From Curtobacterium sp. MCLR17_007 (GTDB lineage: Bacteria > Actinomycetota > Actinomycetes > Actinomycetales > Microbacteriaceae): 64,000 nt of DNA. Each line of letters starts with the position of its first letter. The stretch's first letter is position 1. The position numbers and the translations under genes were made by a program. Below the pieces are notes generated by a model. The model was not told the origin of the DNA. It saw nothing but the letters and a program-made list of their open reading frames with translations, and searched no databases. This document shows positions 10,536 to 38,808 of the stretch, in pieces. The stretch is from contig NZ_CP126271.1 of the NCBI RefSeq assembly GCF_003234655.2, positions 496,001-560,000 on the forward strand, in the 5' to 3' direction.

Positions 10536-10617
10536 GGTTCCAGAATTCTGGCATCTCGACCGCACTGACGGGGCGCTCGTGGAACCTGAGCGAACCTGAG
10601 CGGCGAGTTGTGGAACC
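10536..10617. repeat. Copy A of the 82-bp inverted-end element (GGTTCC type)
   Basis: It begins GGTTCCAGAATTCTGGCATC and ends GAGCGGCGAGTTGTGGAACC; the ends are inverted copies (GGTTCCA/TGGAACC). It contains the 12-bp palindrome CCAGAATTCTGG at 10540-10551. Length and right end match the copy at 30658 exactly. Confidence 0.8.
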
Positions 10618-10664
10618 TGACCAATTCGGCGCGCAGCACGAGCAGCGCGAGGCGCCGCCCGGCG

Positions 10665-12356
10665 TCAGTCGGCGATGTTCGCCGTGACCGCGTCGATGTA
10701 GGCCGAGCGCTCCTCGCGCGACGACGGCCGGCCCGGCACCCCCGGGCGCTCCTGCCACGGCAACGGCCCCGTCTCGTGGCGGTACTCGATGCCCATGGCC
10801 TCGAGCCGGGCGAGGTGCTCGGCCAGCCGCCCCCGGAACTCGGCGAGGTCGCGCGGGCCGGTGACGTCGGCGGACCACAGCGCCTCGGACAGGGCGACCA
10901 CGCGGGGGAACAGCTGGTAGTCGAGCTTGCGGACGTCGTCCACGTGCTCGGTCCACATGTTGCCCTGGCCACCGATGACGTGCGCCCGCTCGGCCTCGGT
11001 CAGGTCGTCGGGGACCGGGTCGAAGCGGAAGACGTCGTCGACGGACAGCACGATGGCGATCGGGATCGGCTCGTTCGGCAGGTCGCTCTGCCGGTAGTCC
11101 AGGTACACCTGGTCGTCCGGCGTCGAGATGACGTCGTGCCCGCGCTTCGCCGCCGTGGTCGCTCCGCGCAGCCCGCGCCACGAGACGACCGTGGCCGACG
11201 GGGCGAGGGTGCCGCCCTCGAGGATCTCGTCCCAGCCGAACGCCCGCCGCCCGCGGGACTCGATGTGCGCCGCGAGCTGCCCGATGACCCATGCCTGCAG
11301 CTGTTCCTCGTCGGCCAGGCCGAGCGAGCGGATGCGCTCCTGCGTGCGGGGATCGGCCTCCCACTGCACCTTGGGGCACTCGTCGCCGCCCAGCCCGATG
11401 TAGGCGCTGGGGAACAGGTCGATGACCTCGTCGAGCACGTCGCGGAAGAAGTCGATCGTGCTGTCCTCGGCGTTCAGGACGTCGTCGGCGATGCCCCACT
11501 CGGTCCAGACCTCGACCGGCTGCCCGGTGACTCCGAGCGACGGGTACGCGGCGAGGGCGGCGCGGACGTGGCCGGGGGTCTCGATCTCGGGGACCACCGT
11601 GACGAAGCGGTCGGCGGCGTAGGCGATGATCTCGCGCAGGTCGTCCTGCGTGTAGTGGCCGCCGTGCGGACGGCCGTCGAAGGACTGCGGGCGGAGCACA
11701 CCGGCGTCGTCGGTGACGTGCGCGCCGACCTGCGACTCGCGACGCCACGACCCGACCTCGGTCAGACGCGGGTACTTCCGGACCTCGATGCGCCAGCCCT
11801 GGTCGTCGGTCAGGTGGAAGTGCAGCGTGTTGATGCGGTGGGCGGCGAGCTGGTCGATGACGCGCAGGACCTCGGCCTTGGTGCGGAAGTGCCGGACGAC
11901 GTCGAGCATCACGCCCCGCCAGGCGAAGGCGGGCGCGTCCTCGACGGTCTGCGCGGGAACGGTCCAGGGTCCGGTGCCGACGCGCCCCTTGCGGTACACG
12001 TCGGCGGGCAGCAGCTGCAGCAGCGCCTGGACGCCGTAGAAGACCCCGGCTGCCGTCCCCCCGACGACCTCGACGCGTTTCGGCGAGACGACCAGCCGGA
12101 AGGACTCGGCGACGGACCCACCAGGGCCCTCGGGCAGCCCGGTCGGCGCGACCCGCAGGACGATGGTGTCCGGCCCGTCGGCGTCGGCGTCACGGACCGG
12201 CAGCCCGGTCGATCCCCGGAGCGTCTGCTGCAGGTACAGTCGGACGGACTCGCTCGGGGCATCCGCGACGACGCGGGTCGACGGGGTGATCTCGAACGCG
12301 CCGACACCGGGTGTCGACAGGCGCGGGCGGGGGATGAGCATGTCGGCGTCCACCAT
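10665..12356 (-). CDS. Family 20 beta-N-acetylhexosaminidase, cytoplasmic
   Basis: A 563-residue GH20 enzyme that removes terminal beta-linked GlcNAc or GalNAc. The N-terminal 120 residues fit the GH20b domain; the catalytic barrel has NTLHFHLTDDQGWRIEVRKY and the Asp-Glu pair in GLGGDECPKV (Asp325, Glu326). There is no signal peptide, so it should act in the cytosol on imported oligosaccharide. It is divergent from a ROK regulator whose start is only 30 bp away. With the DasA-like importer it suggests chitobiose use. ATG at 12356 follows GAGGA closely; a second in-frame ATG lies 15 bp in. Confidence 0.92.
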   Translation of the reverse strand: MVDADMLIPRPRLSTPGVGAFEITPSTRVVADAPSESVRLYLQQTLRGSTGLPVRDADADGPDTIVLRVAPTGLPEGPGGSVAESFRLVVSPKRVEVVGGTAAGVFYGVQALLQLLPADVYRKGRVGTGPWTVPAQTVEDAPAFAWRGVMLDVVRHFRTKAEVLRVIDQLAAHRINTLHFHLTDDQGWRIEVRKYPRLTEVGSWRRESQVGAHVTDDAGVLRPQSFDGRPHGGHYTQDDLREIIAYAADRFVTVVPEIETPGHVRAALAAYPSLGVTGQPVEVWTEWGIADDVLNAEDSTIDFFRDVLDEVIDLFPSAYIGLGGDECPKVQWEADPRTQERIRSLGLADEEQLQAWVIGQLAAHIESRGRRAFGWDEILEGGTLAPSATVVSWRGLRGATTAAKRGHDVISTPDDQVYLDYRQSDLPNEPIPIAIVLSVDDVFRFDPVPDDLTEAERAHVIGGQGNMWTEHVDDVRKLDYQLFPRVVALSEALWSADVTGPRDLAEFRGRLAEHLARLEAMGIEYRHETGPLPWQERPGVPGRPSSREERSAYIDAVTANIAD

Positions 12357-12386
12357 TCCTCAATGATCTTTCGTAATGTGGAGGCT
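12357..12386. promoter_or_regulatory. Compact divergent promoter of hexosaminidase and ROK regulator
   Basis: Only 30 bp separate the starts. TTCGTAATGT at 12371-12379 contains a plus-strand -10 candidate TAATGT (12374-12379, 7 bp before the ROK ATG) and a minus-strand TACGAA. The -35 regions must lie inside the opposite coding sequences. Confidence 0.45.
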
Positions 12387-13556
12387 ATGGCCGTGACCGA
12401 GACGCTGTCAACGATCCCGAACGGGGTCGTCGGGAGCACGCCCGCGACCCTGCGGCTGATCAACTCGCGGGCCGTCCTCGACGAGTTGTTCCGCGACGAC
12501 GGCGCGTCGGGTGCGCCGACCTCGTTCACGGTGACCGAGCTGACGCGCCTGGTCGGGCTCTCGCGGCCCACGGTCGAGGCCTCGCTCGCCGACCTGGTCG
12601 CGCAGGGCTGGGTGCGCGAGGCCGAGGCCATCGCCACCCCGAACAAGGCCGGCCGACGCGCGAAGCGGTTCCGCGCCGACGCCTCGGCGGGGTCGGTGCT
12701 CGGCGTCGACCTGGGGCTCCACGGCATCGTGGGCGTCCTCGCCGACCTGCGGGGCGAACAGATCGCCCGTGTCGACGAGGTCTACCCGAACCTGGCATCG
12801 GCGGACCAGGCGTGGACGAGCGTGCAGGAGGTGGTCCGCCGCCTGACCTCGACCGAGGGGGCCGGACGGCTCCTCGCGGCGACGTTCGGCGTGCCGGCCG
12901 TGGTCGACCGCAGCGGTGCGATCGACTACACGATCGCGGTGCCGGAGTGGGTCGAGAGCCGGGTGCCCGGCCGGATCCAGGACCTGTTCCCGACCGCGAC
13001 GACGTTCTTCGACAACGACGCCAAGCTCGCCGCCACCGCCGAGGCGATGTGGGGCGGCTTCCGTGGTGCCCGCGACGCGCTCTGGCTGGTGATGGGTCGG
13101 CAGATCGGTGCGGCGTTCCTGGTCGACGGCGTACTGGCGCGCGGGGCGCACGGCGCGGCCGGCGAGGTGGGCGGTCTGCCGTCGACCGGCTGGCCCGCAG
13201 CCCCCGCCCGCCTGGAGGCCCGGATCCCCTCCGGCATGGACCTGGAGTCCGTCATGGTGGCGGCCGGGCACGGCGACGCCGTCGCCGAGAGGGTGGTGCG
13301 CTCGCTGGCGGAGGACGTCGCGACCGGTGTGGCGCAGCTCGTGGCCACGCTCGACCCCGAGGTGGTCGTCGTCGGTGGCGAGGTGCTTCCAGCGGCCGAG
13401 GTGTTCTGCGCGGCGCTCTCCGAGGTCGTCGCACCGATGCTCCGCCACCCCGTGCCGATCGTGCCGTCGAGCGTCGGTCGTGACGCCGTCGCCCGGGGCG
13501 CCCTGGCCCGGTCGCTGACCCACGTCCGGTCGACGCACATGGGACTCGGGGGCTGA
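12387..13556 (+). CDS. ROK-family transcriptional regulator (NagC/Mlc type)
   Basis: A 389-residue protein with an N-terminal winged helix (TVTELTRLVGLSRPTVEASL) and a ROK sugar-kinase-like domain (VLGVDLGLHGIVGVLADLRG; ARGAHGAAGEVGGLPSTGW). The Cys-rich zinc motif of classical ROK proteins is not evident. Position 12387 is chosen because TAATGT lies 7 bp upstream, a leaderless promoter pattern; a GTG at 12393 is better spaced from GGAGG and remains possible. It is divergent from the hexosaminidase gene and probably represses it until an amino sugar binds. Confidence 0.85.
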   Translation: MAVTETLSTIPNGVVGSTPATLRLINSRAVLDELFRDDGASGAPTSFTVTELTRLVGLSRPTVEASLADLVAQGWVREAEAIATPNKAGRRAKRFRADASAGSVLGVDLGLHGIVGVLADLRGEQIARVDEVYPNLASADQAWTSVQEVVRRLTSTEGAGRLLAATFGVPAVVDRSGAIDYTIAVPEWVESRVPGRIQDLFPTATTFFDNDAKLAATAEAMWGGFRGARDALWLVMGRQIGAAFLVDGVLARGAHGAAGEVGGLPSTGWPAAPARLEARIPSGMDLESVMVAAGHGDAVAERVVRSLAEDVATGVAQLVATLDPEVVVVGGEVLPAAEVFCAALSEVVAPMLRHPVPIVPSSVGRDAVARGALARSLTHVRSTHMGLGG

Positions 13557-13576
13557 TCCGACTCGGGGGCTGATCC
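13543..13576. repeat. 17-bp tandem duplication over the ROK stop
   Basis: GACTCGGGGGCTGATCC occurs twice head to tail (13543-13559 and 13560-13576). The first copy contains the TGA stop of the ROK gene, so the duplication does not change the protein. Confidence 0.85.
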
Positions 13577-13625
13577 GCACGGGCTTCTGCGGAAGCTGTC
13601 AGGGCACTCAGCAATGATGGGCGGC

Positions 13626-14360
13626 ATGACGACTGCCCTCGCCGCCGCCGCGCCCTCCGACACTGAGATGGGTGGGCTGTCGGGGCTCGTGCTGCAGCTG
13701 ATCGACCTGCTCGGGGAGTGGGGCGTCGCGCTCATGCTGTTCGTCGAGACGGTCTTCCCGCCGATCCCGTCCGAGCTCATCCTGCCGCTCGCGGGCTTCC
13801 TCGCCGGAGCCGGTCGGATGAACCTGGTGCTCGTGCTGGTCCTCGCGACGCTGGGGTCCTACGTCGGGGCGCTGGTGCTGTACTGGCTCGGGCGGGTGAT
13901 CGGCTTCGAGCGCACCGTCCGGTGGCTCGGCCGGCTGCCGCTCGTCGACGAGGACGACTTCCGCAAGGCCGCCGCGTGGTTCCACCGGCACGGCCGGAGC
14001 GCGGTGTTCTTCGGCCGGTTCGTGCCGATCGTGCGGAGCCTCATCTCGCTGCCTGCCGGCGCCGACCGGATGCACCTCGGCACGTTCTCGGTGTTCACGA
14101 TCATCGCGAGCGGCATCTGGAACAGCGGCCTGGTGCTGCTCGGCGCCGCCTTCGGGACCCAGTACGACAAGGTCGAGCAGTACACCGAGTGGATCGACCG
14201 GGTGCTCTACGTCGCGATCGCTGTCGTCGTCGTCACCTTCGTGGTGCGGCGCGTCCGCCGTGCCCGGGGAGAGCGCGCCCAGGGGCGAGCCGTGGGCGCG
14301 GCGGAACCCGAGGCCGGCGCGGCTCGCGGGCGCCGACGTGCGACACCCGCGAACGACTGA
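13626..14360 (+). CDS. DedA-family membrane protein
   Basis: A 244-residue DedA/SNARE-associated (VTT domain) protein, probably a phospholipid flippase or transporter. Visible are the family's acidic FVETVFPPIPSELILPLAGF, followed by VLVLATLGSYVGALVLYWLG and the motif FFGRFVPIVRSLISLPAG. About five membrane segments are predicted, with a basic C-terminus. In-frame ATGs at 13614 and 13617 are also possible; 13626 is preferred by family start, but no strong ribosome-binding site decides it. Its stop lies 3 bp from that of the convergent DUF2945 gene. Confidence 0.9.
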   Translation: MTTALAAAAPSDTEMGGLSGLVLQLIDLLGEWGVALMLFVETVFPPIPSELILPLAGFLAGAGRMNLVLVLVLATLGSYVGALVLYWLGRVIGFERTVRWLGRLPLVDEDDFRKAAAWFHRHGRSAVFFGRFVPIVRSLISLPAGADRMHLGTFSVFTIIASGIWNSGLVLLGAAFGTQYDKVEQYTEWIDRVLYVAIAVVVVTFVVRRVRRARGERAQGRAVGAAEPEAGAARGRRRATPAND

Positions 14361-14363
14361 GCG

Positions 14364-14567
14364 TCACGCCTTGGTGAGCGCGGACTCCTTGTGCGCAGCC
14401 TGCTTGCCGGACTTCTCCGACTCGACGATCCAGTAGGGGTCGTCTTCGGTCGGCTTGAAGTGCTGTCCGTCGAACGTGAAGTCCTTCGTCTTCTGCTCGA
14501 CCAACGTGCCGGTCGTCTTCCCCTGGGAGGTGTTCCAGTGCACCTCGTCGCCCTTCGACATCGCCAT
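14364..14567 (-). CDS. DUF2945 (HVA1/TUDOR-like) small protein
   Basis: A 67-residue protein with MSKGDEVHWNTSQGKTTGTL and a TKDFTFDGQHFKPTEDDPYW segment, matching the DUF2945 hypervirulence-associated TUDOR-like family, whose members are small beta-barrel proteins of unknown function. The C-terminal Lys/Ala-rich tail (KSGKQAAHKESALTKA) is also typical. The start at 14567 is supported by AAGGACGG; an ATG two codons later is an alternative. It is convergent with dedA. Confidence 0.88.
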   Translation of the reverse strand: MAMSKGDEVHWNTSQGKTTGTLVEQKTKDFTFDGQHFKPTEDDPYWIVESEKSGKQAAHKESALTKA

Positions 14568-14701
14568 GAGCCCGTCCTTCCGTCTCGGTGTGTTGCACGG
14601 ATGTTAGACCCCGATGCATCCGCATGAATGCAGGGATGTACCCCCGGTCACGAAGTCATAACACGGGGCGACTTCTGTCAGTGAGACGCGTACCGTCGAG
14701 C

Positions 14702-15811
14702 ATGAGTCACCACGCGAGCGCCGTTCGCCGTCCTGGCTCCCGACGGATCGACGACCTGATGACCCTCGTGGACAACGCCCGCACCGAGACGGTGCTCTCG
14801 GGGCGGTACCGTCTGTCCCGGCTCATCGGCACGGGCGGCATGGGCTCCGTCTACGAAGCCCGCGACGAGCACACCTACCGCCTGGTCGCCGTCAAGCTCT
14901 TCGCGACGCCGCAGACGATGACGACGGCGGACCGTGTCCGTCAGGAGCGCGAGATCCGGCTCCTCAGCATGCTCTCGCACCCGGGGCTCATCCCGCTCTA
15001 CGACGCAGGCACCCACGAGTTCCCGGACGGTCCGCACCGCTTCATCGTGATGGAGCTCATCGCCGACGCGACGCTGCTGCGTCGACTGGCCGAAGGTCCG
15101 CTGCACAACTACGAGGCTGCCGACCTCGGCGCCCAGCTGGCCGACGCCCTGGCGTACGTGCACTCCCGCGGCATCGTGCACCGCGACGTCAAGCCCGCCA
15201 ACATCCTGATCAGCGACGAGGGCTCGTCCGGCTTCGCCCGCACGGTCAAGCTCACGGACTTCGGCGTCGCGCACTTCGTCGACGGGTCGCGGCTGACCAA
15301 CGACGGCACCATCATCGGCACGGCCGCCTACCTCAGCCCGGAACAGGTCGCCGGCGAGCCGATCAGCTACGCGACCGACGTCTACTCGCTCGGACTCGTG
15401 CTGCTCGAGGTGCTCACTGGCAAGCAGGAGTACTCCGGCACGCTGGTCGAGGCTGCGCTCGCACGCCTGCGCCGCAGCCCGGAGATCCCCGAGGCCGTCG
15501 GGCCCGACTGGCGGGACCTGCTGCTGCGGATGACCGACCGCGACCCGGCCCGTCGCCCGACCGCCGTGGCGGTGGCCAACGCGCTGCGGGGCGGTTCCAC
15601 GCAGATCACCGGCCCGGTGCCGCTCGGCCCGTCGCGGGTGAAGCACAAGCGCGACCACCGCATGCACCGTGCGGCGCACCGACACGCTCGTCGGGGCACC
15701 TTCGAGGCGGTCAACCGCTGGCGTCGTCGCAACGTGATGACGGCCTCCCTGGCCGCGGGCGGCGTGCTCGTCGCATGCGTGCTGAGCTACGTCGCGGGCA
15801 CCTTCCACTGA
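14702..15811 (+). CDS. Membrane-anchored Ser/Thr protein kinase
   Basis: A 369-residue Hanks-type kinase. The glycine loop GTGGMGSVYEA, VAVKLF lysine, catalytic loop HRDVKPANIL and LTDFGVAHF are intact, followed by GTAAYLSPEQVAGEP (activation segment end). After a basic linker of about 60 residues there is a single C-terminal transmembrane helix (MTASLAAGGVLVACVLSYVA) with no extracellular sensor domain, so the kinase faces the cytosol. ATG at 14702 is preceded by TACCGT at 5 bp, suggesting a leaderless transcript; an in-frame ATG at 14759 would shorten it by 19 residues. Substrates are unknown. Confidence 0.9.
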   Translation: MSHHASAVRRPGSRRIDDLMTLVDNARTETVLSGRYRLSRLIGTGGMGSVYEARDEHTYRLVAVKLFATPQTMTTADRVRQEREIRLLSMLSHPGLIPLYDAGTHEFPDGPHRFIVMELIADATLLRRLAEGPLHNYEAADLGAQLADALAYVHSRGIVHRDVKPANILISDEGSSGFARTVKLTDFGVAHFVDGSRLTNDGTIIGTAAYLSPEQVAGEPISYATDVYSLGLVLLEVLTGKQEYSGTLVEAALARLRRSPEIPEAVGPDWRDLLLRMTDRDPARRPTAVAVANALRGGSTQITGPVPLGPSRVKHKRDHRMHRAAHRHARRGTFEAVNRWRRRNVMTASLAAGGVLVACVLSYVAGTFH

Positions 15812-15860
15812 TCCGCCGAGCGAACCCCGCGGGTCGGCGGTTTCGTGCAGGATGGACTGC

Positions 15861-16484
15861 ATGACCGACCAGCGCTGGATCAAGATCTGCGGCCTGTCCA
15901 CGCCCGACGCGGTGGACGTCGCCGTCGATGCGGGCGCCGACGCGGTCGGGTTCGTCTTCGCCGCGGGCAGCCCCCGCACCGTGACCGCCGACCTGGCGAA
16001 GGAACTCGTCGAGCGCGTGCCCGACGGGGTCGATGCCGTGGGGGTCTTCCGCGACCAGGAGATCGACGAGGTCGTCGGGATCGCCTCGGCGGTGGGGCTC
16101 ACGACCCTGCAGCTGCACGGCGGCGAGTCGGCGACCGACTTCGCTCGCGCGCGGGACGCCGGCTTCTTCACGATCCGGGCGGTCGCGGCGCAGGACTACC
16201 TGCGTGAGACGCCGGACGAGCGTGCCGCGTACGACCACGATCTGCTGCTGCTCGACGCGGCTGAGCCGGGCAGCGGGCGGCTCATCGACTCGGTAACGCT
16301 GGCCGACGGCATCGACGAAGCCTGGATCCTTGCCGGGGGGCTCACCCCGGCGAACGTCGTGGCCGCGGTGGGTGCGCTCGACCCGGACGGGGTCGACGTG
16401 TCGAGCGGCGTGGAGTCCGAGCGCGGTGTGAAGGACGCGGCCAAGATCCGGGCGTTCGTCGAGGCGGTCCGCAGCATCGGCTGA
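15861..16484 (+). CDS. trpF: Phosphoribosylanthranilate isomerase family protein
   Basis: This 207-residue TIM-barrel protein has the TrpF N-terminus WIKICGLSTPDAVDVAVDAG with the catalytic Cys, GFVFAAGSPRTV, LQLHGGES, the ILAGGLTPANVVAAV phosphate-binding segment and GVDVSSGVESERGVKDAAKI. TrpF isomerises N-(5-phosphoribosyl)anthranilate in tryptophan synthesis. No other trp gene is nearby, which is common in actinobacteria. ATG 15861 is preferred because an AGGA lies 9 bp before it; ATG 15852 is in frame. Confidence 0.9.
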   Translation: MTDQRWIKICGLSTPDAVDVAVDAGADAVGFVFAAGSPRTVTADLAKELVERVPDGVDAVGVFRDQEIDEVVGIASAVGLTTLQLHGGESATDFARARDAGFFTIRAVAAQDYLRETPDERAAYDHDLLLLDAAEPGSGRLIDSVTLADGIDEAWILAGGLTPANVVAAVGALDPDGVDVSSGVESERGVKDAAKIRAFVEAVRSIG

Positions 16485-16535
16485 CGCGGGCTGCCGCGGC
16501 GCGCGGGCGCCCCGACGAGGCGGACGCACGGCGGC

Positions 16536-16570
16536 GGGACGGGACGGCACCGGGCCTCCCGTCCGCTCGT
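16536..16570. terminator. Degenerate member of the GGAGGC hairpin family
   Basis: The right arm GGCACCGGGCCTCCCGTCC is intact but the left arm (GACGGGACGGCACC) has lost the middle part, leaving an imperfect stem. It lies between the convergent trpF and HAD genes. Confidence 0.45.
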
Positions 16571-16578
16571 GGTGACGG

Positions 16579-17349
16579 TCAGACGGACGTGACCCGCAGC
16601 GTCGGGATCAGGTCGGTCAGGAAGGCGTCGGTGTCCTCCCACCCCTCGACCGCGTGGCAGGGGACGCCGAGCGCCTTGACCGGGTAGTCGTTGCCCTCGG
16701 GATCGAGCCGGTCGCCGACGAAGAGCATGTCGTCCAGCGCGATGCCGGTGATCTCCGCCAGCCGCTGCATGCCGTAGGCCTTGTCGATGCCCTTGCGTGT
16801 GATGTCGACGCTGGTGGAGCCGCCGGACCGGACCTCGAGGTCGGGGAGCTCGGCCTGCACCCGGCGGCGCAGGTCGTCCTTCTTGGCGCCGGTCGGGTCC
16901 CAGGCCTTCTTGACGTCGACCGGCGCGCGCTGGCCGAGCGCGGAGAACGTGATCTGTGAGCCGCGGTCCTCGAGGATGTCACCCCAGGTCTCGGACTCCC
17001 AGTACCCGGCGTCCTTCGCGACGGACTCGACGGCCGCCAGAGCACGGGCCTTCTGGTCGTCGGTGAGGTCCTCGGCGTACTGCAGCGCCCAGTCGTCACC
17101 CGACCAGCGGTAGTAGCGGGTGCCGCAGGTGGGCAGCAGGTGCAGGTCGTCGAGGGTGAGCCCGTCGCGGTGACGCAGCGGTGTGACCAGCTGCTGCTCG
17201 AACTGCGCGAAGTTGCCGCCGGAGATGACCGCCACCGGGACCGTCTCGAGCAGGGCGGCGAAGGTCTCGAGCATGCGGGGGTCGAGCGAGGACTTCGAGG
17301 GGGCGAGGGTGTCGTCCAGGTCGAAGGCCACGAGGCGTGGTGCGGTCAT
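16579..17349 (-). CDS. HAD-IIB family phosphatase
   Basis: A 256-residue HAD-superfamily hydrolase of the Cof/phosphomannomutase-like subclass. The nucleophile motif FDLDDTLAPSK is at residues 8-18, motif II is VAVISGGNFAQF, and motifs III-IV are near KKDDLRRR and FVGDRLDPEGNDYPVKALG. Such enzymes dephosphorylate sugar phosphates; the exact substrate is unknown. The start MTAPRLVAFD is chosen over an upstream in-frame Met because CAGAAT lies 7 bp upstream in a leaderless arrangement and the family begins here. It is convergent with trpF. Confidence 0.87.
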   Translation of the reverse strand: MTAPRLVAFDLDDTLAPSKSSLDPRMLETFAALLETVPVAVISGGNFAQFEQQLVTPLRHRDGLTLDDLHLLPTCGTRYYRWSGDDWALQYAEDLTDDQKARALAAVESVAKDAGYWESETWGDILEDRGSQITFSALGQRAPVDVKKAWDPTGAKKDDLRRRVQAELPDLEVRSGGSTSVDITRKGIDKAYGMQRLAEITGIALDDMLFVGDRLDPEGNDYPVKALGVPCHAVEGWEDTDAFLTDLIPTLRVTSV

Positions 17350-17425
17350 GGCGCCGATTCTGTCATGTCGACCAGGCCCGGATGCGGCCCGCAACCGATG
17401 TGTGCGGGAAGCCGACCGCGACCCG

Positions 17426-18016: not shown

Positions 18017-18109
18017 GCCGGTGTGAACGACGGTCGATGCGTTCGTATTTCCAGTCTGAACGACGTCACATGTCGCCGATCGTCCGGGCGGGATGCCAGG
18101 ATGGCGGGG

Positions 18110-19033: not shown

Positions 19034-19078
19034 GGCGGGGCGGGGCGGTGTCGGGGCCGGTGGGCGTCCGCGCGCCGA

Positions 19079-19192
19079 GGTCGCACGACTCGCCGCTGGC
19101 GGACGTCGAGGTCACGAGAACCGTCGCGACGCTCCTGCTCGAACGGCCGACTCTGCGACGTCGGCGGGATGTGGGTGGCGAGTCGTGCGACC
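19079..19192. repeat. Copy E of the inverted-end element, full length (GGTCGC type)
   Basis: The ends are exact 16-bp inverted repeats: GGTCGCACGACTCGCC at 19079-19094 and its complement at 19177-19192. An internal GGTCAC at 19110 marks the start of an 83-bp core equivalent to the 82-bp core of the other copies. Confidence 0.82.
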
Positions 19193-19302
19193 AAGACCAC
19201 GCCGTCACGCCGCACCTGCCATCAAGGGGGTGGGCAATCGCCGGACTGGAGGCGCGGGGCGGGGCCGGTACGGGCCTCCCGTCCAGCAGATGGTCGCGAC
19301 CA

Positions 19303-19416
19303 GGTCGCAGCACTCGCCGCTCACCTCGTGCCGAGGTCGCACACCGTGCCGGACGCCCGAGGCCCAGGCGACCGTTTCCGCGCCGTCGGCAACCGTGAGC
19401 GGCGAGTTGTGCGATC
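19303..19416. repeat. Copy C of the inverted-end element, full length (GGTCGC type)
   Basis: The left end GGTCGCAGCACTCGCCGCTC pairs with the right end GAGCGGCGAGTTGTGCGATC with two mismatches. The 82-bp core starts at GGTCGCAC, 19335, and ends at 19416. Confidence 0.8.
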
Positions 19417-19444
19417 TCGGGGGAGCGGGAGCGGGAACGATCTC

Positions 19445-19492
19445 GCGGGCGCGGGCGCGGGAGCGGGAGCGGGAGCGGGAGCGGGAGCGGGC
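19445..19492. repeat. GCGGGA hexanucleotide repeat
   Basis: About eight head-to-tail GCGGGC/GCGGGA units lie directly after copy C and before the exonuclease III gene end. Simple-sequence expansion is the plain explanation. Confidence 0.8.
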
Positions 19493-19532
19493 GAGGGCGC
19501 GGGAGCAGGGCGGCGGGCGCGCCGCCCGGGCG

Positions 19533-28131: not shown

Positions 28132-28140
28132 GTGGGGGAC

Positions 28141-29264: not shown

Positions 29265-29312
29265 CCGCTCGAAGTGTGTGTGCTGCGTCATGGCTCGACC
29301 ACGAGGACCACC

Positions 29313-30605: not shown

Positions 30606-30648
30606 GGTCGCACGCCCCGTCGAGGTTCCCGCGCTGCCGAGGTTCCCG

Positions 30649-30749
30649 CCCTGCCGAGGTTCCACAATTACGGCATCTCGGGACCTCGAACAGGCGCATC
30701 GGGGAACCTCGATGCACCTGAGCGGCGAGTTGTGGAACCTCGGGCAGGG
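30649..30749. repeat. Copy B of the 82-bp inverted-end element with extended arms (GGTTCC type)
   Basis: The 82-bp core (30658-30739) begins GGTTCCACAATTACGGCATC and ends GAGCGGCGAGTTGTGGAACC. The complementary ends extend outward (CCCTGC-CGAGGTTCCACAA against TTGTGGAACCTCGGGCAGGG), giving a stem of about 19 bp. Further CGAGGTTCCC repeats lie at 30621 and 30638. It sits in the convergent gap between the antiporter and the DtxR gene and may also terminate transcription. Confidence 0.8.
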
Positions 30750-30787
30750 TGGCCCCGGACGGCGCCCGGGGCGTGGGGCGCGGCGCG

Positions 30788-31477: not shown

Positions 31478-31483
31478 GCGTCA

Positions 31484-31501
31484 ATGGTACAAACACACCA
31501 T
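31484..31501. promoter_or_regulatory. Divergent leaderless promoters with an 18-bp dyad
   Basis: ATGGT (31484-31488) and ACCAT (31497-31501) form an inverted repeat with 8-bp spacing. It contains TACCAT on the minus strand (6 bp from the regulator ATG) and TACAAA on the plus strand (6 bp from the CPBP ATG). A repressor bound here would block both genes; autoregulation by the DtxR-family protein is inferred. Confidence 0.5.
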
Positions 31502-32408: not shown

Positions 32409-32510
32409 CGGCAACTGTTCCTCGGACCGACACCGGGCCTCCTTACCGTCGCTGCGATCCCATCCCGGGAACCGAGCCCTGCCCGACACTGTCGCCGGCG
32501 GGTCCACAGG

Positions 32511-32547
32511 AAGGAGCGCCGCCCCTCCGGGGCGGCAACCACGCATG
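32511..32547 (+). promoter_or_regulatory. Ribosome-binding site separated from its start by a hairpin
   Basis: AAGGAG (32511-32516) is 28 bp from the ATG at 32545. Between them GCCGCCCC (32518-32525) pairs perfectly with GGGGCGGC (32529-32536). Folding would bring the Shine-Dalgarno sequence to about 9 nt from the start codon. Confidence 0.55.
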
Positions 32548-34365
32548 CGCACATCCGCACGCGCCATGGCCACGGGGGTGACCGTCGCAGCGATCGCGAC
32601 GTCCCTGGTCATCGGCAACCCGCTCGTGGCGAACGCCGCGACCTACCCGAGCGACACCGCCAAGCCGGACCTCGTCTCGCTGCTGAGCGGCTACGACTCC
32701 TTCTGGAAGTCCAGCGGCACGAACGACCTGCACGGCACGGTCGTCAGCGGTGCCACGCTCGCCCAGAACGACCAGCTGACCTCCTGGATCAACCAGAACG
32801 CCACGAAGGCCCAGCAGTTCACGGCGCTGCAGGACTCCGAGTACAAGAACGCCCCGACCGGGTACGACCAGTCCTCCACGGTGGGACAGGGGCTCGGCGA
32901 CGCGCTCGAGAAGCTCTACCTGCAGGGCCGGCAGAACGGCGACCTGCCGCTGACCGAGGCGCTCATCAACAGCAACACGGGCACGACCGGCGCCTACGTC
33001 GGCACCGGCACCGCGAAGACGCACTTCAGCTACCCGCGCCCCTACCTGCCGACGGACGCCTCCGCGACCCTGCCGGCCGGCGACGACCAGGTCAACTGCG
33101 CGCCTGCGAAGGTCAACGCCTCGTCGCTCGCGGGCAACCGCACCGGTACGGCATGGGCGGACGCCAAGGGCAACCTGACGATCACGCGCGTGCCCGTGCA
33201 GACGGACACCACGCACGAGTTCTCGCCGAGCGACGTCGTGCTCGACGCCGGCTACGGAACCCAGGGCATCTGCACCGGTGGGTCCTTCCCGAGCGGCCAC
33301 ACCACCACCGCGTACCAGGCCGGCATCACCCTGGCCACGCTGGTCCCCGAGCTCGCGCCGGAGATCCTGGCCCGCGCATCCGAGAACGGCAACGACCGCA
33401 TCGTGCTCGGCGTGCACTACCCGCTCGACATCATGGGCGGACGCATGGACGGCGAGGCCGCCCTGGCCGCACGCTGGTCCGACACCGCGTTCCGCACCGG
33501 TGTGCTCGAGCCGGCCCGCAAGGAGCTGGTCAGCTACCTCGAGTCCAAGTGCGGCAACACCCTGGCGACGTGCATCGCCGCCGAGAAGCCGTACCAGGAC
33601 AACCCCTACGGCGGGAAGGCGATCCCGGGCGGCACGTCCCAGATCGTGACCGACCGCGCTTCGGCCGTGAAGGTCTACCGCGAGCGCATGGACTACGGGT
33701 TCGCGAAGACCGGCACGACCGGCCTGGCCGCCAGCGTCCCGGTCGGCGCCGAGAACCTGCTGCTCAGCACGTTCCCGACCCTGACCGACGCGCAGCGCAC
33801 CGCGGTGCTCGCGCAGACCGAGATCGCCTCGGGTGACCCGCTCGACCAGTCCGGCACCGCGAACGGCTCGTGGGAGCGCCTCGACCTGGCGGCTGCCACC
33901 AGCGCCACGGTCACCGTGGCGCAGGACGGCACCGCGACCGTCGTCGCGACCGGCGGCACCGCCAAGGTCGTCTCCGGCGTCCTGACCGCACCGGACGGCA
34001 CCACCGTGCAGGCCGGTTCGCAGCTCGCCCTGGCAGCCAGTGGCCTGACCGCCGGCGCGACCTACCAGGTCGTGCTCGCCAGCGACCCGACCGTCGTCGG
34101 CACGCTGACCGCCGACGCGAGCGGCGCCGCCACCGGCAGCGTCACGATCCCGGCGGGCACGACGGCCGGCGCGCACACCGTCGACCTGGTGGACGCCTCG
34201 GGCGCCTCGGCGGTCGTCGACCCGCTCGCGATCACCGTGACCGCGGCACCCACCACCGGCACGCCCGGCGGCACCACGGGCGGCACGGGCAGCGCTGGCG
34301 GGACCGGCAGCACCGGCAACGCCGGGACGACGACCGGCGTCCACCTGCCCGTCGTCAGCGGCTGA
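32545..34365 (+). CDS. Secreted PAP2-family acid phosphatase
   Basis: A 606-residue exported phosphatase. Signal peptide through about residue 32 (TSLVIGNPLVANAATYP). The PAP2 motifs are KTHFSYPRPYL, SFPSGHTTTAYQAG and RIVLGVHYPLDIMGGR (catalytic His), as in class A nonspecific acid phosphatases; it should release phosphate from organic esters outside the cell. After the catalytic domain (to about residue 430) comes a beta-rich Ig-like domain (LALAASGLTAGATYQVVLAS) and a Gly/Thr linker ending HLPVVSG at the very C-terminus, the same kind of end as in the Ig-repeat protein at 50510-52105. Start choice rests on the hairpin-bridged ribosome-binding site. Confidence 0.9.
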   Translation: MRTSARAMATGVTVAAIATSLVIGNPLVANAATYPSDTAKPDLVSLLSGYDSFWKSSGTNDLHGTVVSGATLAQNDQLTSWINQNATKAQQFTALQDSEYKNAPTGYDQSSTVGQGLGDALEKLYLQGRQNGDLPLTEALINSNTGTTGAYVGTGTAKTHFSYPRPYLPTDASATLPAGDDQVNCAPAKVNASSLAGNRTGTAWADAKGNLTITRVPVQTDTTHEFSPSDVVLDAGYGTQGICTGGSFPSGHTTTAYQAGITLATLVPELAPEILARASENGNDRIVLGVHYPLDIMGGRMDGEAALAARWSDTAFRTGVLEPARKELVSYLESKCGNTLATCIAAEKPYQDNPYGGKAIPGGTSQIVTDRASAVKVYRERMDYGFAKTGTTGLAASVPVGAENLLLSTFPTLTDAQRTAVLAQTEIASGDPLDQSGTANGSWERLDLAAATSATVTVAQDGTATVVATGGTAKVVSGVLTAPDGTTVQAGSQLALAASGLTAGATYQVVLASDPTVVGTLTADASGAATGSVTIPAGTTAGAHTVDLVDASGASAVVDPLAITVTAAPTTGTPGGTTGGTGSAGGTGSTGNAGTTTGVHLPVVSG

Positions 34366-34427
34366 GTCACCCCACCGGGCCGGTCGGCGCATCGAGCGTC
34401 GGCCGGCCTGGAGGCTCGTCCCACCTC

Positions 34428-34469
34428 CGCCCCGCACGTCCCGCCCCGCACGTCCCGCCCCGCACGTCC
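34428..34469. repeat. 14-bp tandem repeat, three copies
   Basis: CGCCCCGCACGTCC is repeated exactly three times (34428-34441, 34442-34455, 34456-34469) in the convergent gap between the phosphatase and the ANT-like gene. Confidence 0.88.
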
Positions 34470-34543
34470 CGCCGAGCCCGCTTCCCGGTACCCGGCCCCG
34501 TGGATGAGCAGCTCGCTCGGGTGCGGGCAGACGCGTCCTCGCG

Positions 34544-34595
34544 GATGACGAATCAGGTTCGGCGAACCCGGGGTGAGGCGACCGGATTCGTCATC
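34544..34595. terminator. Stem-loop overlapping the end of the ANT-like gene
   Basis: GATGACGAATC (34544-34554) pairs with GATTCGTCATC (34585-34595), with an inner GGTTCG/CGAACC stem. The right arm includes the stop codon of the minus-strand ANT-like gene, so the hairpin forms at the end of its transcript and probably terminates it. Confidence 0.65.
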
Positions 34596-35229
34596 GCGCG
34601 GAAGGAACCTGATCGTCGGTCGCGATCGCCCAGGGGGAGTCGGGGTGGGCGGTGCGGATAGCGTGCCGGAGCCAGGTCTGGGCGCCCGCGTCGAGCCGGT
34701 GCAGCACATGCCGCCGATCGGACTCGTCGACCGGACGTGGCGCGCGGCTCTTCCAGAGGAGCTGGACCTCGGGCGCGACCGTGCGGACGCCCGCCACCAC
34801 GAGGACCGCTCGGCGCCACGGCAGGACCACGGACGGATCGCGCCGGTAGACCCACGTCGTGTCGTCCCCGTCCTCGGCGTTGACCTGGAGCACCCATCGA
34901 CCGGATCGCTGGTCGCGGCACCAGACGTTGTCCGGGCCCGCGTCGTCCGGGCCTGCGTCTGCGGGGCCGAGTTCGTCGAGCGGCGTCAGCCAGCCGTCCT
35001 GCGCCGCGAACGGCCGGAGCGAGCCGGGCAGCGACGCCAGGAACGCTGCGCGATCACGCCGGGTCACGCTCACGTCGACGTCCCCGTGCCGTCGGGTCAC
35101 ACGCCCGAGCCAGTGGTCGATGCCCACGCCGCCCGACAGCCAGGCCGTCGTGCCGTCGATCAGGGACGAGACCGCGTCGACGGAGAGCGGCTCCCAGAGG
35201 TCGACCGCGGGGTCGTGCCGTCGTCGCAC
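34591..35229 (-). CDS. ANT(2'')-like nucleotidyltransferase
   Basis: A 212-residue protein of the aminoglycoside-2''-adenylyltransferase-like family. The N-terminal nucleotidyltransferase core is clear: AWLSGGVGIDHWLGRVTRRH followed by GDVDVSV, giving the paired Asp residues that bind metal. Later segments (VNAEDGDDTTWVYRRDPSVV; APEVQLLWKSRAPRPVDESD) fit the family. Whether the substrate is an aminoglycoside is unknown. It starts with GTG 6 bp after the methyltransferase stop, so it is the last gene of a HAD-methyltransferase-ANT operon. Confidence 0.8.
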   Translation of the reverse strand: MRRRHDPAVDLWEPLSVDAVSSLIDGTTAWLSGGVGIDHWLGRVTRRHGDVDVSVTRRDRAAFLASLPGSLRPFAAQDGWLTPLDELGPADAGPDDAGPDNVWCRDQRSGRWVLQVNAEDGDDTTWVYRRDPSVVLPWRRAVLVVAGVRTVAPEVQLLWKSRAPRPVDESDRRHVLHRLDAGAQTWLRHAIRTAHPDSPWAIATDDQVPSAR

Positions 35230-35235
35230 GAGGGC

Positions 35236-36042
35236 TCAGCGCTTGTGGGCGACCGCGAAGACACGGCGGAACGGGAACACCGTGCCGTGGGGGCCATGCG
35301 GGTAGGCCTGGCGCAGTCGAGCGGCGTACGTGTCCTCGAACGCGGCGGTCAGCTCGCCGGTCGGATCGACGGCGTCGAGTGCGGCCAGCGCCGGACGGAG
35401 CCCCGTACCGCGGACCCAGGCCAGCACCGGGTCCTCACCGGGGAGCAGCTGCATGTACGTGGTCTCCCACGCCGTGGCCGCGAAGCCGTTGTCCTCGAAG
35501 AGCTCCAGGTAGCCCGCGGCATCGAGGACCGGGTCCGCCCGGAGCACACCGGACAGCGCGGGAGCCCACGGACCCTCGGCGGCGACCTCCCGCATCAGCG
35601 CGTGTGACGGGGAGTCGAAGTTGCCCGGGACCTGCATCGCGAACCACGAGTCCGACGGCATCGCGGCGAGCCAGCCGGGCAGCAGCTCGACGTGCGACGG
35701 GACCCACTGCAGCGCGGCGTTCGTCACGACGACGTCGTCCGACGCGGTGGGAGTCCAGTCCTCGATGGCGGCGAGCTCGAACGACAGGTTCGGGTGCCGC
35801 TCGGTCAGGGAGGCAGCATCAGCCGACATCTGCGCCTGTTCCAACATCTCCGCCGAGGAGTCCACCCCGACGACGTGGGCCGACGGCCAGCGGTCGGCGA
35901 GGGTGGCGGTCAGGGTCCCGGGACCGCAGCCCAGGTCGACGACGCGACGCGGGGCCTCCCGTCCGATCTGGGCGACCAGGTCGTGGAACGGACGCGACCG
36001 CTCGTCCTGGAACGCGGCGTACCGCGTCGGGTCCCACCGCAC
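35236..36042 (-). CDS. tam: Trans-aconitate 2-methyltransferase-like SAM methyltransferase
   Basis: A 268-residue class I methyltransferase. RRVVDLGCGPGTLTATLADR is the SAM-binding motif I, VVGVDSSAEMLEQAQ follows, and VVTNAALQWVPSHVELLPGW matches Tam, which methylates trans-aconitate to relieve inhibition of aconitase. The start YAAFQDERSRPFHDLV is the Tam N-terminus. It uses GTG and begins 2 bp after the HAD gene, suggesting translational coupling. Confidence 0.88.
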   Translation of the reverse strand: MRWDPTRYAAFQDERSRPFHDLVAQIGREAPRRVVDLGCGPGTLTATLADRWPSAHVVGVDSSAEMLEQAQMSADAASLTERHPNLSFELAAIEDWTPTASDDVVVTNAALQWVPSHVELLPGWLAAMPSDSWFAMQVPGNFDSPSHALMREVAAEGPWAPALSGVLRADPVLDAAGYLELFEDNGFAATAWETTYMQLLPGEDPVLAWVRGTGLRPALAALDAVDPTGELTAAFEDTYAARLRQAYPHGPHGTVFPFRRVFAVAHKR

Positions 36043-36044
36043 CG

Positions 36045-36842
36045 CTACATCTCGACTTCGATGGGCTCCGAGCGGACGAGCTCGTGCACGCCGGAGATGA
36101 CCTCGCTGGGGCGGAAGGGGTACCGGTCGATCTCGGCCTGGTCGCTGATGCCCGTCATGACCAGGACGGTGTGCAGCCCCGCCTCGATGCCGGCCTGGAC
36201 GTCGGTGTCCATCCGGTCGCCGATCATCCCGGTGTTCTCGGAGTGCGCGCCGATGCGGTTCATCGCCGATCGGAACATCATCGGGTTCGGCTTGCCGACC
36301 ACGTAGGGCTGCTTGCCGGTGGCCTTCTCGATCATCGCGGCGATCGCACCCGTCGCGGGCAGGACGCCCTCGGCGCTCGGGCCCGTTGCGTCGGGGTTCG
36401 TGACGATGAACCGGGCGCCGGCACGGATGAGCCGGACGGCCTTCGTGATCGCCTCGAACGAGTAGTTGCGGGTCTCACCGACGACGACGTAGTCCGGGTC
36501 GGTCTCGGTCATGATGAATCCCGCCTCGTGCAGGGCCGTGGTCATGCCGGCCTCGCCGATGACGAACGCCGAGCCGCCGGGCATCTGCGACTTGCAGAAG
36601 TCGGCCGTGGCCAGGGCGCTCGTCCAGATGCGGTCCTCGGGCACGTCGATGCCAGACCAGCGCAACCGGGCACTCAGGTCGCGGGGCGTGAAGATCGAGT
36701 TGTTCGTCAGGACCAGGAACTCGGTGCCTTCGTCGAGCCACTGCTGGATGAGTTCCGGAGCGCCGGGGAGGGCGTGGTTCTCGTGCACGAGCACGCCGTC
36801 CATGTCCGTCAGCCAGCACTCGACCTCGTCGCGGGATGCCAT
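36045..36842 (-). CDS. HAD-IIA (NagD-like) phosphatase
   Basis: A 265-residue NagD/AraL-family phosphatase. Nucleophile motif WLTDMDGVLVHENHA, motif II FLVLTNNSIFTPRDLS, motif III VVGKPNPMMFRSAMNRI with the Lys, and motif IV MIGDRMDTDVQAGIEAG. These enzymes dephosphorylate sugar phosphates or nucleotides and often serve in metabolite repair, as Tam does. TAGTCT lies 6 bp before the ATG on the minus strand, so this is the promoter-proximal gene of the three-gene operon and probably leaderless. Confidence 0.92.
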   Translation of the reverse strand: MASRDEVECWLTDMDGVLVHENHALPGAPELIQQWLDEGTEFLVLTNNSIFTPRDLSARLRWSGIDVPEDRIWTSALATADFCKSQMPGGSAFVIGEAGMTTALHEAGFIMTETDPDYVVVGETRNYSFEAITKAVRLIRAGARFIVTNPDATGPSAEGVLPATGAIAAMIEKATGKQPYVVGKPNPMMFRSAMNRIGAHSENTGMIGDRMDTDVQAGIEAGLHTVLVMTGISDQAEIDRYPFRPSEVISGVHELVRSEPIEVEM

Positions 36843-36934
36843 GCGGTCAGACTAGTCGGCGCGTCTCGGGGCGCCCGTGAACACCGAGCACCGATAGGGT
36901 TTTTGCGGGACACGTACCGGAACCAGGAGGCCCC

Positions 36935-37645
36935 GTGCTCGTCGAACCGACCACCACCGACACGTCGGCCGGCTCCGCCCGCGATGCCAGGGCCGCTGAC
37001 GCTGCCGGCTCCGCGGGCGCTGCTGCTGACACACACCGACGCCGGGGGCGGCCCAACTCGCTGACACGCGAGCAGGTGATCGCGGCAGCGACGGCCATCG
37101 CGAACGAGGACGGCCTCGACCGGCTGTCGTTCCGGGCGCTGGGGCTGCGGCTCGGCGTCGCGCCGATGACCGTGCACCGGACGATCGGTGGCCTGGACGA
37201 CCTGCACGCCGAGCTCGTGCGGAAGACGGTCGACGAGTTCACCGCGACGTTCGTGTGGCCGGACGAGTGGCACGACGTCGTCCGGACCTTCGCCCGCACG
37301 TTCCGCGACCTGATGGTGACGCACCCGCTCGTGCTCGAGTCGCACAGCCAGCGGGCCCCGCTGGTGTCCTCGGAGTCGGACGCGGTCGTCGCCAAGGTCG
37401 TCGGGGCGCTGCAGGAGGGCGGTCTGAGCGACGTCGAGGCGATGTACACGTTCTTCGTGGTGTACGACTTCGTGGTCGGGCACGCCGGGGTGCTGGTCGG
37501 TCGGGGCGACTCCGAGGCCGGGCGCCCCGAGCGGCACGCGCTGGTCGGCGAGATCCTGGGCACGCACTCGTACGACACGCGGTTCGAGCTGGGGCTGGAC
37601 GTCCTGCTGGCCGGGATCGCGGCGCGGCTGCCGCAGTCGGCGTGA
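36935..37645 (+). CDS. TetR-family transcriptional regulator
   Basis: A 236-residue TetR-family protein with an Ala/Arg-rich N-terminal extension of about 40 residues, then the DNA-binding domain (LTREQVIAAATAIANEDGLD, LSFRALGLRLGVAPMTVHRT) and a C-terminal ligand domain resembling TetR_C (VRTFARTFRDLMVTHPLVLE). GTG at 36935 is backed by an excellent AGGAGG. It is divergent from the HAD-Tam-ANT operon, which it may control; ligand unknown. Confidence 0.88.
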   Translation: MLVEPTTTDTSAGSARDARAADAAGSAGAAADTHRRRGRPNSLTREQVIAAATAIANEDGLDRLSFRALGLRLGVAPMTVHRTIGGLDDLHAELVRKTVDEFTATFVWPDEWHDVVRTFARTFRDLMVTHPLVLESHSQRAPLVSSESDAVVAKVVGALQEGGLSDVEAMYTFFVVYDFVVGHAGVLVGRGDSEAGRPERHALVGEILGTHSYDTRFELGLDVLLAGIAARLPQSA

Positions 37646-37690
37646 CCTCGACGACGACGACGTCCGGCTGAGCCGCCCTACGCTGGACGG

Positions 37691-38365
37691 GTGACCGACC
37701 AGCCCGCGACGGATCCGTCGTCGCAGCCCGAACCCGCGCCCTCGCACGAGCGCACGACGAACGGCGTCGGACCCCACCCGCGCCCCTGGCCGGAGGACCC
37801 CCGGCTCGACCCGGAGCTGCTCGCGCACGGCGACACCCGCAACGTCCTCGACCACTACCGCTACTGGTCGATGGAGGCGATCGTCACCGACCTCGACACC
37901 CGCCGGCACGGGTTCGACGTGGCGATCGAGAACTGGCAGCACGACCTGAACATCGGGTCGATCGTCCGCAGCGCGAACGCGTTCCTGGCAGGCACCGTGC
38001 ACATCATCGGGCGCCGCCGCTGGAACCGCCGCGGAGCGATGGTCACCGACCGGTACCAGCACGTGCGGAACCACCCCGACGTGGATGCCTTCCTGCAGGC
38101 CATGCGCGACGAGGGGCGCCCGGTCATCGCGATCGACAACACCCCGGGCGCGACGATGCTCGAGTCGACCGAGCTGCCCGAGCGCTGCGTGTTCCTGTTC
38201 GGACAGGAGGGCCCAGGCCTGACCGACGAGGCCGTCGCCGGCGCGGACGCCCACCTCGAGATCGCGCAGTACGGCTCGACGCGGAGCATCAACGCGTCCG
38301 CCGCCGCCGCGATCGTGATGCACACGTGGATCGTCCAGCACGCCGAGGCGCGGCCCGCGGTGTGA
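37691..38365 (+). CDS. SpoU/TrmH-family RNA 2'-O-methyltransferase
   Basis: A 224-residue SPOUT methyltransferase. Motif 1 WQHDLNIGSIVRSANAFLAG, motif 2 FLFGQEGPGLTDEAV and motif 3 AQYGSTRSINASAAAAIVMH are all present, as in TrmH/TrmL-like tRNA or rRNA ribose methylases. The first 45 residues are acidic, proline-rich and probably disordered. TACGCT lies exactly 6 bp before the GTG, with no ribosome-binding site: a leaderless transcript. Confidence 0.93.
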   Translation: MTDQPATDPSSQPEPAPSHERTTNGVGPHPRPWPEDPRLDPELLAHGDTRNVLDHYRYWSMEAIVTDLDTRRHGFDVAIENWQHDLNIGSIVRSANAFLAGTVHIIGRRRWNRRGAMVTDRYQHVRNHPDVDAFLQAMRDEGRPVIAIDNTPGATMLESTELPERCVFLFGQEGPGLTDEAVAGADAHLEIAQYGSTRSINASAAAAIVMHTWIVQHAEARPAV

Positions 38366-38808
38366 GCCGCCGCGGCGAGCGCCAGACGCCGTTCCCGGCG
38401 CGCGCCAGACCCCGTTCCCGGCGGCGGCGTCTCGCAGCGCCGGCAGTGTCGGGCTGTGGCTGGGGTGTCTCGGCGCTGTGGGGCCGGGGTCCGCAACCCC
38501 GCACCGACGTGCCGGGGATGCGTCGGGCCTCCAGTCCGATCAGTGTGGGCGCGGCGGTCGTTCGCTGCGACGGCGGTCGGTCGCGGGTGGCCGGCACCGC
38601 CGCCGGACTGCCGTAGTCGCACGACCTGCCGCCGGCGGACCGCCGAGGTCGCGCAGATCACCGTCGCGAGGGCGCGGCGGCAGCAGTTCCGGCGACTTCG
38701 GCGGACCTGAGCGGCGTGTTGTGCGACCTGGGGGAGGGGGCGGGCAACGGGCAGCGAGCAACGAGCAACGGGGAACGGGCAGCCCGGAACGGGCGGAGCC
38801 GGTCCGCG
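38366..38808. other. Non-coding stretch with repeats
   Basis: This 443-bp gap holds a direct duplication of CGCCAGACSCCGTTCCCGGCG-type sequence (38380-38400 and 38403-38423), a full copy of the 115-bp inverted-end element (38616-38728) and a run of AACGGGCAGC/AACGAGC simple repeats (38739-38800). No gene is seen. Confidence 0.65.
38616..38728. repeat. Copy D of the inverted-end element, full length (GGTCGC type)
   Basis: The left end GTCGCACGACCTGCCGC is inverted relative to the right end GCGGCGTGTTGTGCGACC. The core runs from GGTCGCGC at 38647 to 38728, exactly 82 bp, as in copies A, B and C. Confidence 0.8.

Follow-up and report, generated by a model that had tools for sequence, protein, structure and literature searches.

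The stretch of DNA analysed here, called the window throughout, comprises 64,000 bp of the genome of Curtobacterium sp. MCLR17_007 (contig NZ_CP126271.1, positions 496,001 to 560,000) and carries six copies of a short element built of conserved units in inverted orientation (Table 1). The copies adjoin sugar transport, DeoR, phosphotransferase system (PTS), GH20, transporter and endonuclease/phosphatase-family genes, as well as Na/Ca exchanger, DtxR-type, SpoU and LacI family genes; the intergenic DNA has a GC content of 71.6% and is repetitive in places. The element family to which they belong is real, numerous, essentially restricted to the genus and fast-changing.

An earlier note on this DNA had listed five copies, and all five were present on direct reading and measurement of the window. 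A sixth copy near 6301-6345 had been described as truncated, but proved to be complete at 82 bp; it lies on the minus strand and has a third end word (element 1). The proposed core length of 82 bp held for elements 2, 4, 5 and 6, whereas element 3, which has the least regular interior among the window copies, was measured as a 114-bp form. The interval formerly given as 30649-30749 does contain a copy, but included flanking sequence in addition to element 5 itself. Two spare AGGTTCC units stand ahead of this element (GGTTCC at 30624 and 30641). The sequence next to the right end, which had been thought constant, varies: besides the unit GAGCGGCGAGTTGTG, the variants GGCGTGTTGTG, GGCGCGTCGTG and GGCGGGTCGTG occur too. 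A strict pattern, AGGTxyC..Gy'x'ACCT at 82 or 83 bp, was found in two window copies and in none of 100 dinucleotide shuffles; the remaining copies deviate from it. A simple GGGAGC-like repeat lies at 19417-19510, directly beside element 4.

Table 1. Position, strand and composition of the element copies in the window
Element	Position	Strand	Form	Type and ends	Units or core
1	6297..6378	-	82 bp	type A layout, end word GCAC (CGTGCC..GGCACC)	
2	10536..10617	+	82 bp	type A (GGTTCC..GGAACC)	left palindrome, inner and outer inverted units
3	19079..19192	.	114 bp	type B (GGTCGC..GCGACC)	four units, inner ones degenerate
4	19303..19416	+	114 bp	type B (GGTCGC..GCGATC)	82-bp core 19335-19416
5	30658..30739	+	82 bp	type A (GGTTCC..GGAACC)	
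6	38615..38728	+	114 bp	type B	82-bp core 38647-38728

Architecture, distribution and placement of the family

The elements are composed of units (GAGGTNNC / GNNACCTC) at fixed spacings, with 32 bp between units. Read inwards, the building block is CCGAG-word-CAnGACnCGCCGC, in which the short word is GTTC in type A and GTCG in type B and, by inspection, CGGT or TGGT in type C and TGAG in type E. In the full element, or long form (114 bp), a leading pair of head-to-tail units and a trailing pair of inverted units enclose a variable middle, with a distance of 32 bp within each pair; the 82/83-bp form, or core, is the long form without the first outer unit. The consensus of the outer unit, read inwards, is cCGAGGTTCCACgACTCGCCGc for type A and cCGAGGTCGCACgACnCGCCGC for type B. 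The inner right unit of type B has the consensus cCGAGGTCGCaCgAnntGCCG, and the left inner unit of type A, cCGAGGTTCCgnAATtncGGcAtCTC, is a 24-bp palindrome by itself.

Counts of architecture, placement, adjoining genes, covariation, tags and target duplications were made after removal of 51 loci (48 titled as other organisms, L023 from another genus, and L172-L173 with transposase hits) and after omission of U4 matches less than 130 bp from the locus start and of repeats of the same 68 bases. Among the 165 distinct outer units at Curtobacterium loci, 86 had a forward AGGTnnC 76 or 77 bp upstream and 88 had a second inverted unit (GnnACCT) 32 or 31 bp upstream, while an extra forward outer AGGTnnC was seen 108 or 109 bp upstream in 16. 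The four nucleotides before the unit were CGCC in 28, CGTC in 21 and CCCC in 13 of 109 left ends, and CGCC in 51 and CGTC in 15 of 165 right ends. Single units also occur in head-to-tail arrays, with a period of 35 bp in the genome of the window, G000 (G000:C1:2688176-2688290), and of 32 bp in G016 (G016:C6:201102-201183). In G022, two elements face each other in a 1.3-kb gap without a predicted gene (L030:347-1678); by inspection, the neighbours of this gap are a groEL-like gene and one for a histidine kinase.

We then searched genomes with a sequence model built from 60 of 73 non-redundant elements, a window copy replacing its L001 duplicate. This model gave 73 matches in G000 (3.8 Mb, two contigs) and 1 to 76 in 35 other Curtobacterium genomes; at least 12 of its rows come from G000 or the close strain Leaf183, where part of the matches is obtained by construction, about 71 candidates were scored per genome, so that high numbers may be too low, and a near-symmetric element may be hit once on each strand, so that the number of matches does not exactly equal that of copies. 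The 23 genomes of other genera gave 0 to 3 weak matches each, with a best E value of 1.6e-4. The outer-unit pattern matched 22 times in G000 compared to 0 for a reversed control and, over 58 relatives, was confined to Curtobacterium apart from one isolated match; at 49 loci of other organisms, it matched 48 times, and none of these matches had an inner unit where one was expected. The dispersed set is thus larger than the earlier note stated. Two Microbacteriaceae isolates, PS02332 and PS02333, also carry elements, and four genomes (G013, G014, G024 and G030) are almost free of types A and B, with 1 to 6 model matches. A single query of the plasmid database PLSDB with one element returned five weak Streptomyces matches, four of them under a YncE gene.

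As for placement, assessed with genes predicted by a simple GC-frame caller, 80 of 145 elements lay in convergent gaps, 52 in co-directional gaps, 2 in divergent gaps, 1 inside a predicted gene and 10 at locus edges. Counting gaps of 90 bp or more, the window and six further stretches, three of which are the Leaf183 counterpart of the window, had 18 that were convergent, 21 co-directional and 20 divergent. Divergent gaps are therefore avoided, since so few elements lie there although such gaps are available. Within co-directional gaps, 27 elements were oriented with and 25 against the genes, a strand comparison that is weakened by the near symmetry of the element; this balance would suit a DNA element more than an RNA read from one strand.

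Word types and the linkage of the two ends

The statement that both ends of the element change together stood up as a strong tendency but not as a strict rule. Comparing the left word with the outer right word in 109 elements, we counted 38 A/A, 46 B/B, 10 with A on the left and B on the right, none with the reverse combination and 15 others. Hybrids thus represent 10 of the 94 type A and B elements, all in one direction, and the association between left and right words has a Fisher p of about 2e-17 with relatedness not removed. The word is usually common to all units of one element.

The paired end changes had also been taken to suggest a mobile or structured unit. Outside the variable word, however, the arms show almost no compensating change. 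Within single elements, the arms outside the word agreed no better for U1-U4, U3-U4 and U0-U4 than after shuffling between elements of the same type. Type B showed a weak excess for U1-U3 and U0-U1 (15 and 39 of 1000 shuffles as high, respectively), and its U0-U4 arms agreed less than shuffled ones (998 of 1000). Folding is thus not the main constraint on the element, and, since arm positions within a type agree about as well as when shuffled, the paired change is best read as reflecting two or more recognition types rather than selection for pairing. As single strands, four of the six window copies fold with z values of -4.6 to -7.1 and the other two with about -2; such good folds are as expected of inverted repeats.

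The word was also compared between genomes. Eight of the ten genomes with at least four listed sites were uniform: type A in G021 (34/34), G012 (23/23), G006 (14/14), G004 (6/6), G032 (6/6) and G002 (10/10 listed, of 18), and type B in G007 (6/6) and G019 (4/4). The other two were mixed, with 4 A, 7 B and 1 other in G000 and 7 A and 6 other in G016. On the loci that had been collected, a broader pattern gave 19 B and 7 A for Leaf183 and 5 A, 13 B-like and 1 other for G000. Some genomes are thus close to word-uniform and others are mixed, and the prevailing word differs between genomes. With the word left open, the pattern matched 34 sites in 10 of 14 genomes, with CGAC/CGAT, GAAC, CAAC, GCAC, ACCG, ACCA, CCCG, CTAC and CGGC on the inverted strand; among these sites, those in G033 and G024, for example, resemble coding DNA that was matched by chance.

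Differing elements at conserved positions

In a further step, the elements of G000 were compared with those of Curtobacterium sp. Leaf183 (G063), which has 21 outer-unit sites. The two strains are mostly 93-99% identical in stretches of at least 250 bp around the sites and 94-99% identical over the window. Nineteen loci were paired; the sites L251 and L018 were unplaceable by synteny and stand outside these pairs. Fourteen pairs held the same element, in some cases with an altered tandem copy number (L252/L017 was scored as conserved despite a diverged right flank), and five held a different one: window 6297, window 19079 with 19303, L009/L243, L012/L249 and L022/L238. Elements 2, 5 and 6 are conserved in Leaf183. 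At the place matching element 1, Leaf183 has a type B four-unit element, and elements 3 and 4, both of type B in G000, are both of type A in Leaf183. At these first two replaced loci, the flanks within 300 bp are identical at 285/308, 294/300, 295/300 and 294/300 positions, compared to 69/148 and 246/460 inside. The entire element and its linkers differ at the replaced loci, beyond the words alone. The shared flank at window 6292 ends in CGAGGTG, which is a unit start in Leaf183 and perhaps a unit remnant in G000; in this single case, it seems as though the interior of an element had been replaced by another element. The evidence for this replacement pattern, the most unusual result of the analysis, comes from a single strain pair and from one site followed between species.

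Other differences between the two strains were seen as well. At window 16498-16502 and 34474-34477, where G000 has 4-5 bp, Leaf183 has unrelated sequence of 217 and 227 bp, which is repetitive in part; a tandem-repeat search found no tandem repeats at window 16400-16600. Low-complexity tracts adjoining several elements also differ strongly between the strains.

The site followed across species was the gap (window 10446-10665) that separates a PTS gene from a GH20 gene, picked because G000 has an element there. It was looked up in 40 genomes and was readable in 20; elsewhere the genes were apart, at contig ends or outside the stretches covered. Assigned by eye, the gap held type A in 4 genomes, C in 8, E in 4 and F in 1, and lacked an A-F element in 3. 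It is thus occupied in 17 of 20 readable genomes, by type A in the case of element 2 and by other types in other species. On a tree of the flanking gene from these 20 genomes, at least 9 changes among 5 states are needed, the least possible number being 4. Moreover, well-supported sister pairs differ at this gap (no element in G013 and type C in G014; type C in G010 and type F in G028).

Two further palindrome families were noticed near the elements. One of the three genomes without an A-F element, G015, has units of another family (GAGACGCCG) in the PTS/GH20 gap, and GAGACGCCG..CGGCGTCTC palindromes occur in this gap at the loci L191, L198, L188 and L200, partly beside the elements studied here. 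The second is a 42-bp perfect palindrome, GGACGGGAGGCCCGGTGCCAGCTGGCACCGGGCCTCCCGTCC, which is terminator-like and lies close behind genes at window 6218-6259 and 10456-10497. Its 40-bp core was found 14 to 73 times (at most 3 mismatches) in each of 36 Curtobacterium genomes and in none of 23 genomes of other genera. The arms of this palindrome covary: 22 of 31 copies in G019 read GGTACC..GGTACC, one of them with an arm mismatch, and elsewhere copies are mostly GGTGCC..GGCACC.

Possible mobilization and alternative explanations

Repetitive extragenic palindromic (REP) sequences and REPINs are widespread small bacterial repeats that are usually explained by REP-associated tyrosine transposases (RAYTs). 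REPINs of Pseudomonas and other bacteria are thought to be mobilized by such enzymes (Y1, TnpA-REP). As characterized in passages of PMC3116915, REPINs are REP doublets that form hairpins and occur in clusters and in several flavours, with ends at a fixed distance. The Curtobacterium family resembles them, as far as this description goes, in its two inverted conserved ends at a fixed distance, its variable middle, its many dispersed intergenic copies, its several flavours and its tandem clusters with flanks (PMC3116915). It differs from them in having up to four units, a 32-bp spacing and an actinobacterial host, and its arms hardly covary outside the word, whereas compensatory changes are common in REPINs according to the same passages. 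Moreover, GTAG is not among the eight commonest tetranucleotides at either end, and the domain PF01797 (Y1/RAYT) was found in 0 of 36 Curtobacterium genomes, which leaves the RAYT that had been suggested as a partner without a candidate there. We did not file the family as REPIN because the GTAG tag and RAYT tests both failed. A section of PMC3686654 indicates that orthologous RAYTs in related strains can be flanked by different REP classes.

REPs tagged with CGTC, mostly from alpha-Proteobacteria, "apparently lack a dedicated transposase" in the account given in part of PMC3733652, and the Curtobacterium family shares with them short palindromic repeats, convergent and co-directional gaps and the lack of a known enzyme. 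In contrast, CGTC directly precedes the Curtobacterium unit in just 21/109 left and 15/165 right ends, the stem starts with GA (unit GAGG) and not with AT as in the CGTC-REP stem described in that part, and the architecture is larger and multi-unit. Bacterial interspersed mosaic elements are known to be bound by host proteins. The alternating orientation of units recalls such elements, as outlined in a portion of PMC2817692; by eye, no REP consensus in the compared part of Table 1 of that paper resembles the Curtobacterium unit. No match to Rfam was found on either strand of the window at the gathering threshold, and no Curtobacterium repeat family of this kind was found in the literature (open PMC full texts).

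Taken together, we lean towards a genus-wide family of REPIN-like, non-autonomous palindromic repeats without a RAYT, which turn over in place and are moved by a trans-acting protein; we favour this because of the copy number, the host range, the fixed geometry, the placement at 3' ends, the turnover and the local tandem copies. A trans-acting protein would read the unit, i.e., scaffold plus word, and the same protein would copy or move the element as a module. Its preference for a word may drift between lineages, so that a new type would spread and displace older elements in the spaces at gene ends. As far as PF01797 indicates, this enzyme would not be a Y1/RAYT, and we infer that it is encoded outside the window. 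A rich, fast-changing family that lives like REPINs, in a genus whose genomes yielded no Y1 transposase (PF01797), together with several recognition words and a strain pair with 5/19 changed loci, makes it directly testable what else can spread such repeats.

Several results weigh against this reading. Occupied and empty sites had been expected between strains, but none of the 19 loci of G000 and Leaf183 formed such a pair and no insertion into an empty site was seen; instead, elements were swapped at five. Word uniformity is somewhat overstated, as the narrower pattern penalizes the GGCGCGTCGTG scaffold, which is common in type B; with the broader pattern, G002 had 9 A and 2 B, and G021 had 20 A and 1 GGCACC. 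In the PTS/GH20 gap, types are weakly clustered on the tree, since shuffled labels need 10.9 changes on average and as few as the observed number in 14 of 200 shuffles. The PF01797 search was negative in Curtobacterium while it was positive in 5 of 14 controls and 2 of 23 relatives from other genera; Y2_Tnp gave no match in Curtobacterium nor in the controls and is hence uninformative. Reverse transcriptase was rejected as a partner: it is present in 25 of 40 genomes without tracking the element number (G021, G027 and G011 are rich in elements but lack it, while G013 and G030 have it but are element-poor), and ten reverse transcriptase neighbourhoods held one outer-unit match, possibly due to chance, about 0.9 kb downstream in G000. 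The IS110 transposase (6/40 genomes) was also rejected, as it does not track the elements. Finally, no obvious transposase emerged when 187 element-adjoining genes were clustered by similarity, which involved no family-library scan, and the recurrent clusters look like orthologous sites.

A somewhat unlikely alternative is that the elements are structures at gene ends that are kept for a function, such as bidirectional termination, a barrier between convergent genes or a nucleoid-protein anchor, and are inherited in place, with alleles being swapped by homologous recombination through the flanking genes in a way that mimics replacement. The strong 3' placement with near absence from divergent gaps, the stable folds of four of the six window copies, the filling of the PTS/GH20 gap in most readable species and the conservation of 14 of 19 loci in Leaf183 are all consistent with this, and ordinary recombination between alleles of one species is a serious rival to replacement. 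However, a separate 42-bp terminator-like palindrome already lies beside the element at the PTS/GH20 gap, and, at two replaced loci, the identity of the flanks within 300 bp is 93-98% on either side, with no donor signal, although a same-species donor would still be compatible with this. A kept function would also explain neither the near word uniformity of several genomes nor why types A and B are almost lacking in four others.

We consider it unlikely that the process is one of word-addressed replacement, in which an enzyme unrelated to RAYTs would read the scaffold and the variable 4-nt word and overwrite elements in place; genomes would then drift to a new word while their sites stay occupied, and the 42-bp palindromes of the GGACGGGAGGCCCGGTGCCAGCTGGCACCGGGCCTCCCGTCC type would be under the same or a similar process.

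It is less probable still that a DNA-binding protein recognizes the units throughout the genome, its specificity changing from lineage to lineage, with dispersed copies spreading and homogenizing by gene conversion among themselves and not by transposition. Such a protein would account for the 32-bp unit spacing (about three helical turns) and the arrays of the same period, and for a conserved scaffold with a variable word and little arm-to-arm compensation; in the unrelated 42-bp palindrome family, too, the two arms change jointly in one species or more. The difference of whole elements and linkers at the replaced loci is, however, more than unit conversion would do.

The earlier suggestion of a REP/MITE-like mobile unit (MITE, miniature inverted-repeat transposable element) agrees with the number of copies, their fixed spacing, near genus restriction, 3' placement and turnover, but not in its classical form. 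MITEs such as Correia and RUP elements, named in part of PMC2817692, are small and non-autonomous and bear inverted ends, which, like the small fixed size and the dispersal, is also true of the Curtobacterium family. A classical MITE, belonging to a DDE transposon that has terminal inverted repeats and duplicates its target, is nevertheless very improbable: no duplication of 3, 4, 5, 6 or 8 bp was found among 106 elements at fixed offsets of up to 29 bp (elements near locus ends dropped), the best offset never exceeding the highest of 10 shuffled pairings and equalling it for 5, 6 and 8 bp. Moreover, the family has up to four units instead of two ends, and no parent transposase was seen among the 20 window genes scanned, which are ordinary apart from one without a family. 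Chance or low-complexity similarity, which high GC and repetitive intergenic DNA might favour, is virtually ruled out, being refuted by the reversed-pattern control (22 versus 0 matches), the 100 shuffles without a match and the near restriction to one genus.

The reverse transcriptase mentioned above is a single-copy, retron-like gene (L293:4469-5782, i.e., G000:C1 near 1672927; L294-L300, L302). Its first codons are alike in nine neighbourhoods, and G000 has GTTCCCGGGGGA..TCCCCCGGGAAC at this place, possibly a retron RNA that overlaps the predicted reverse transcriptase frame.

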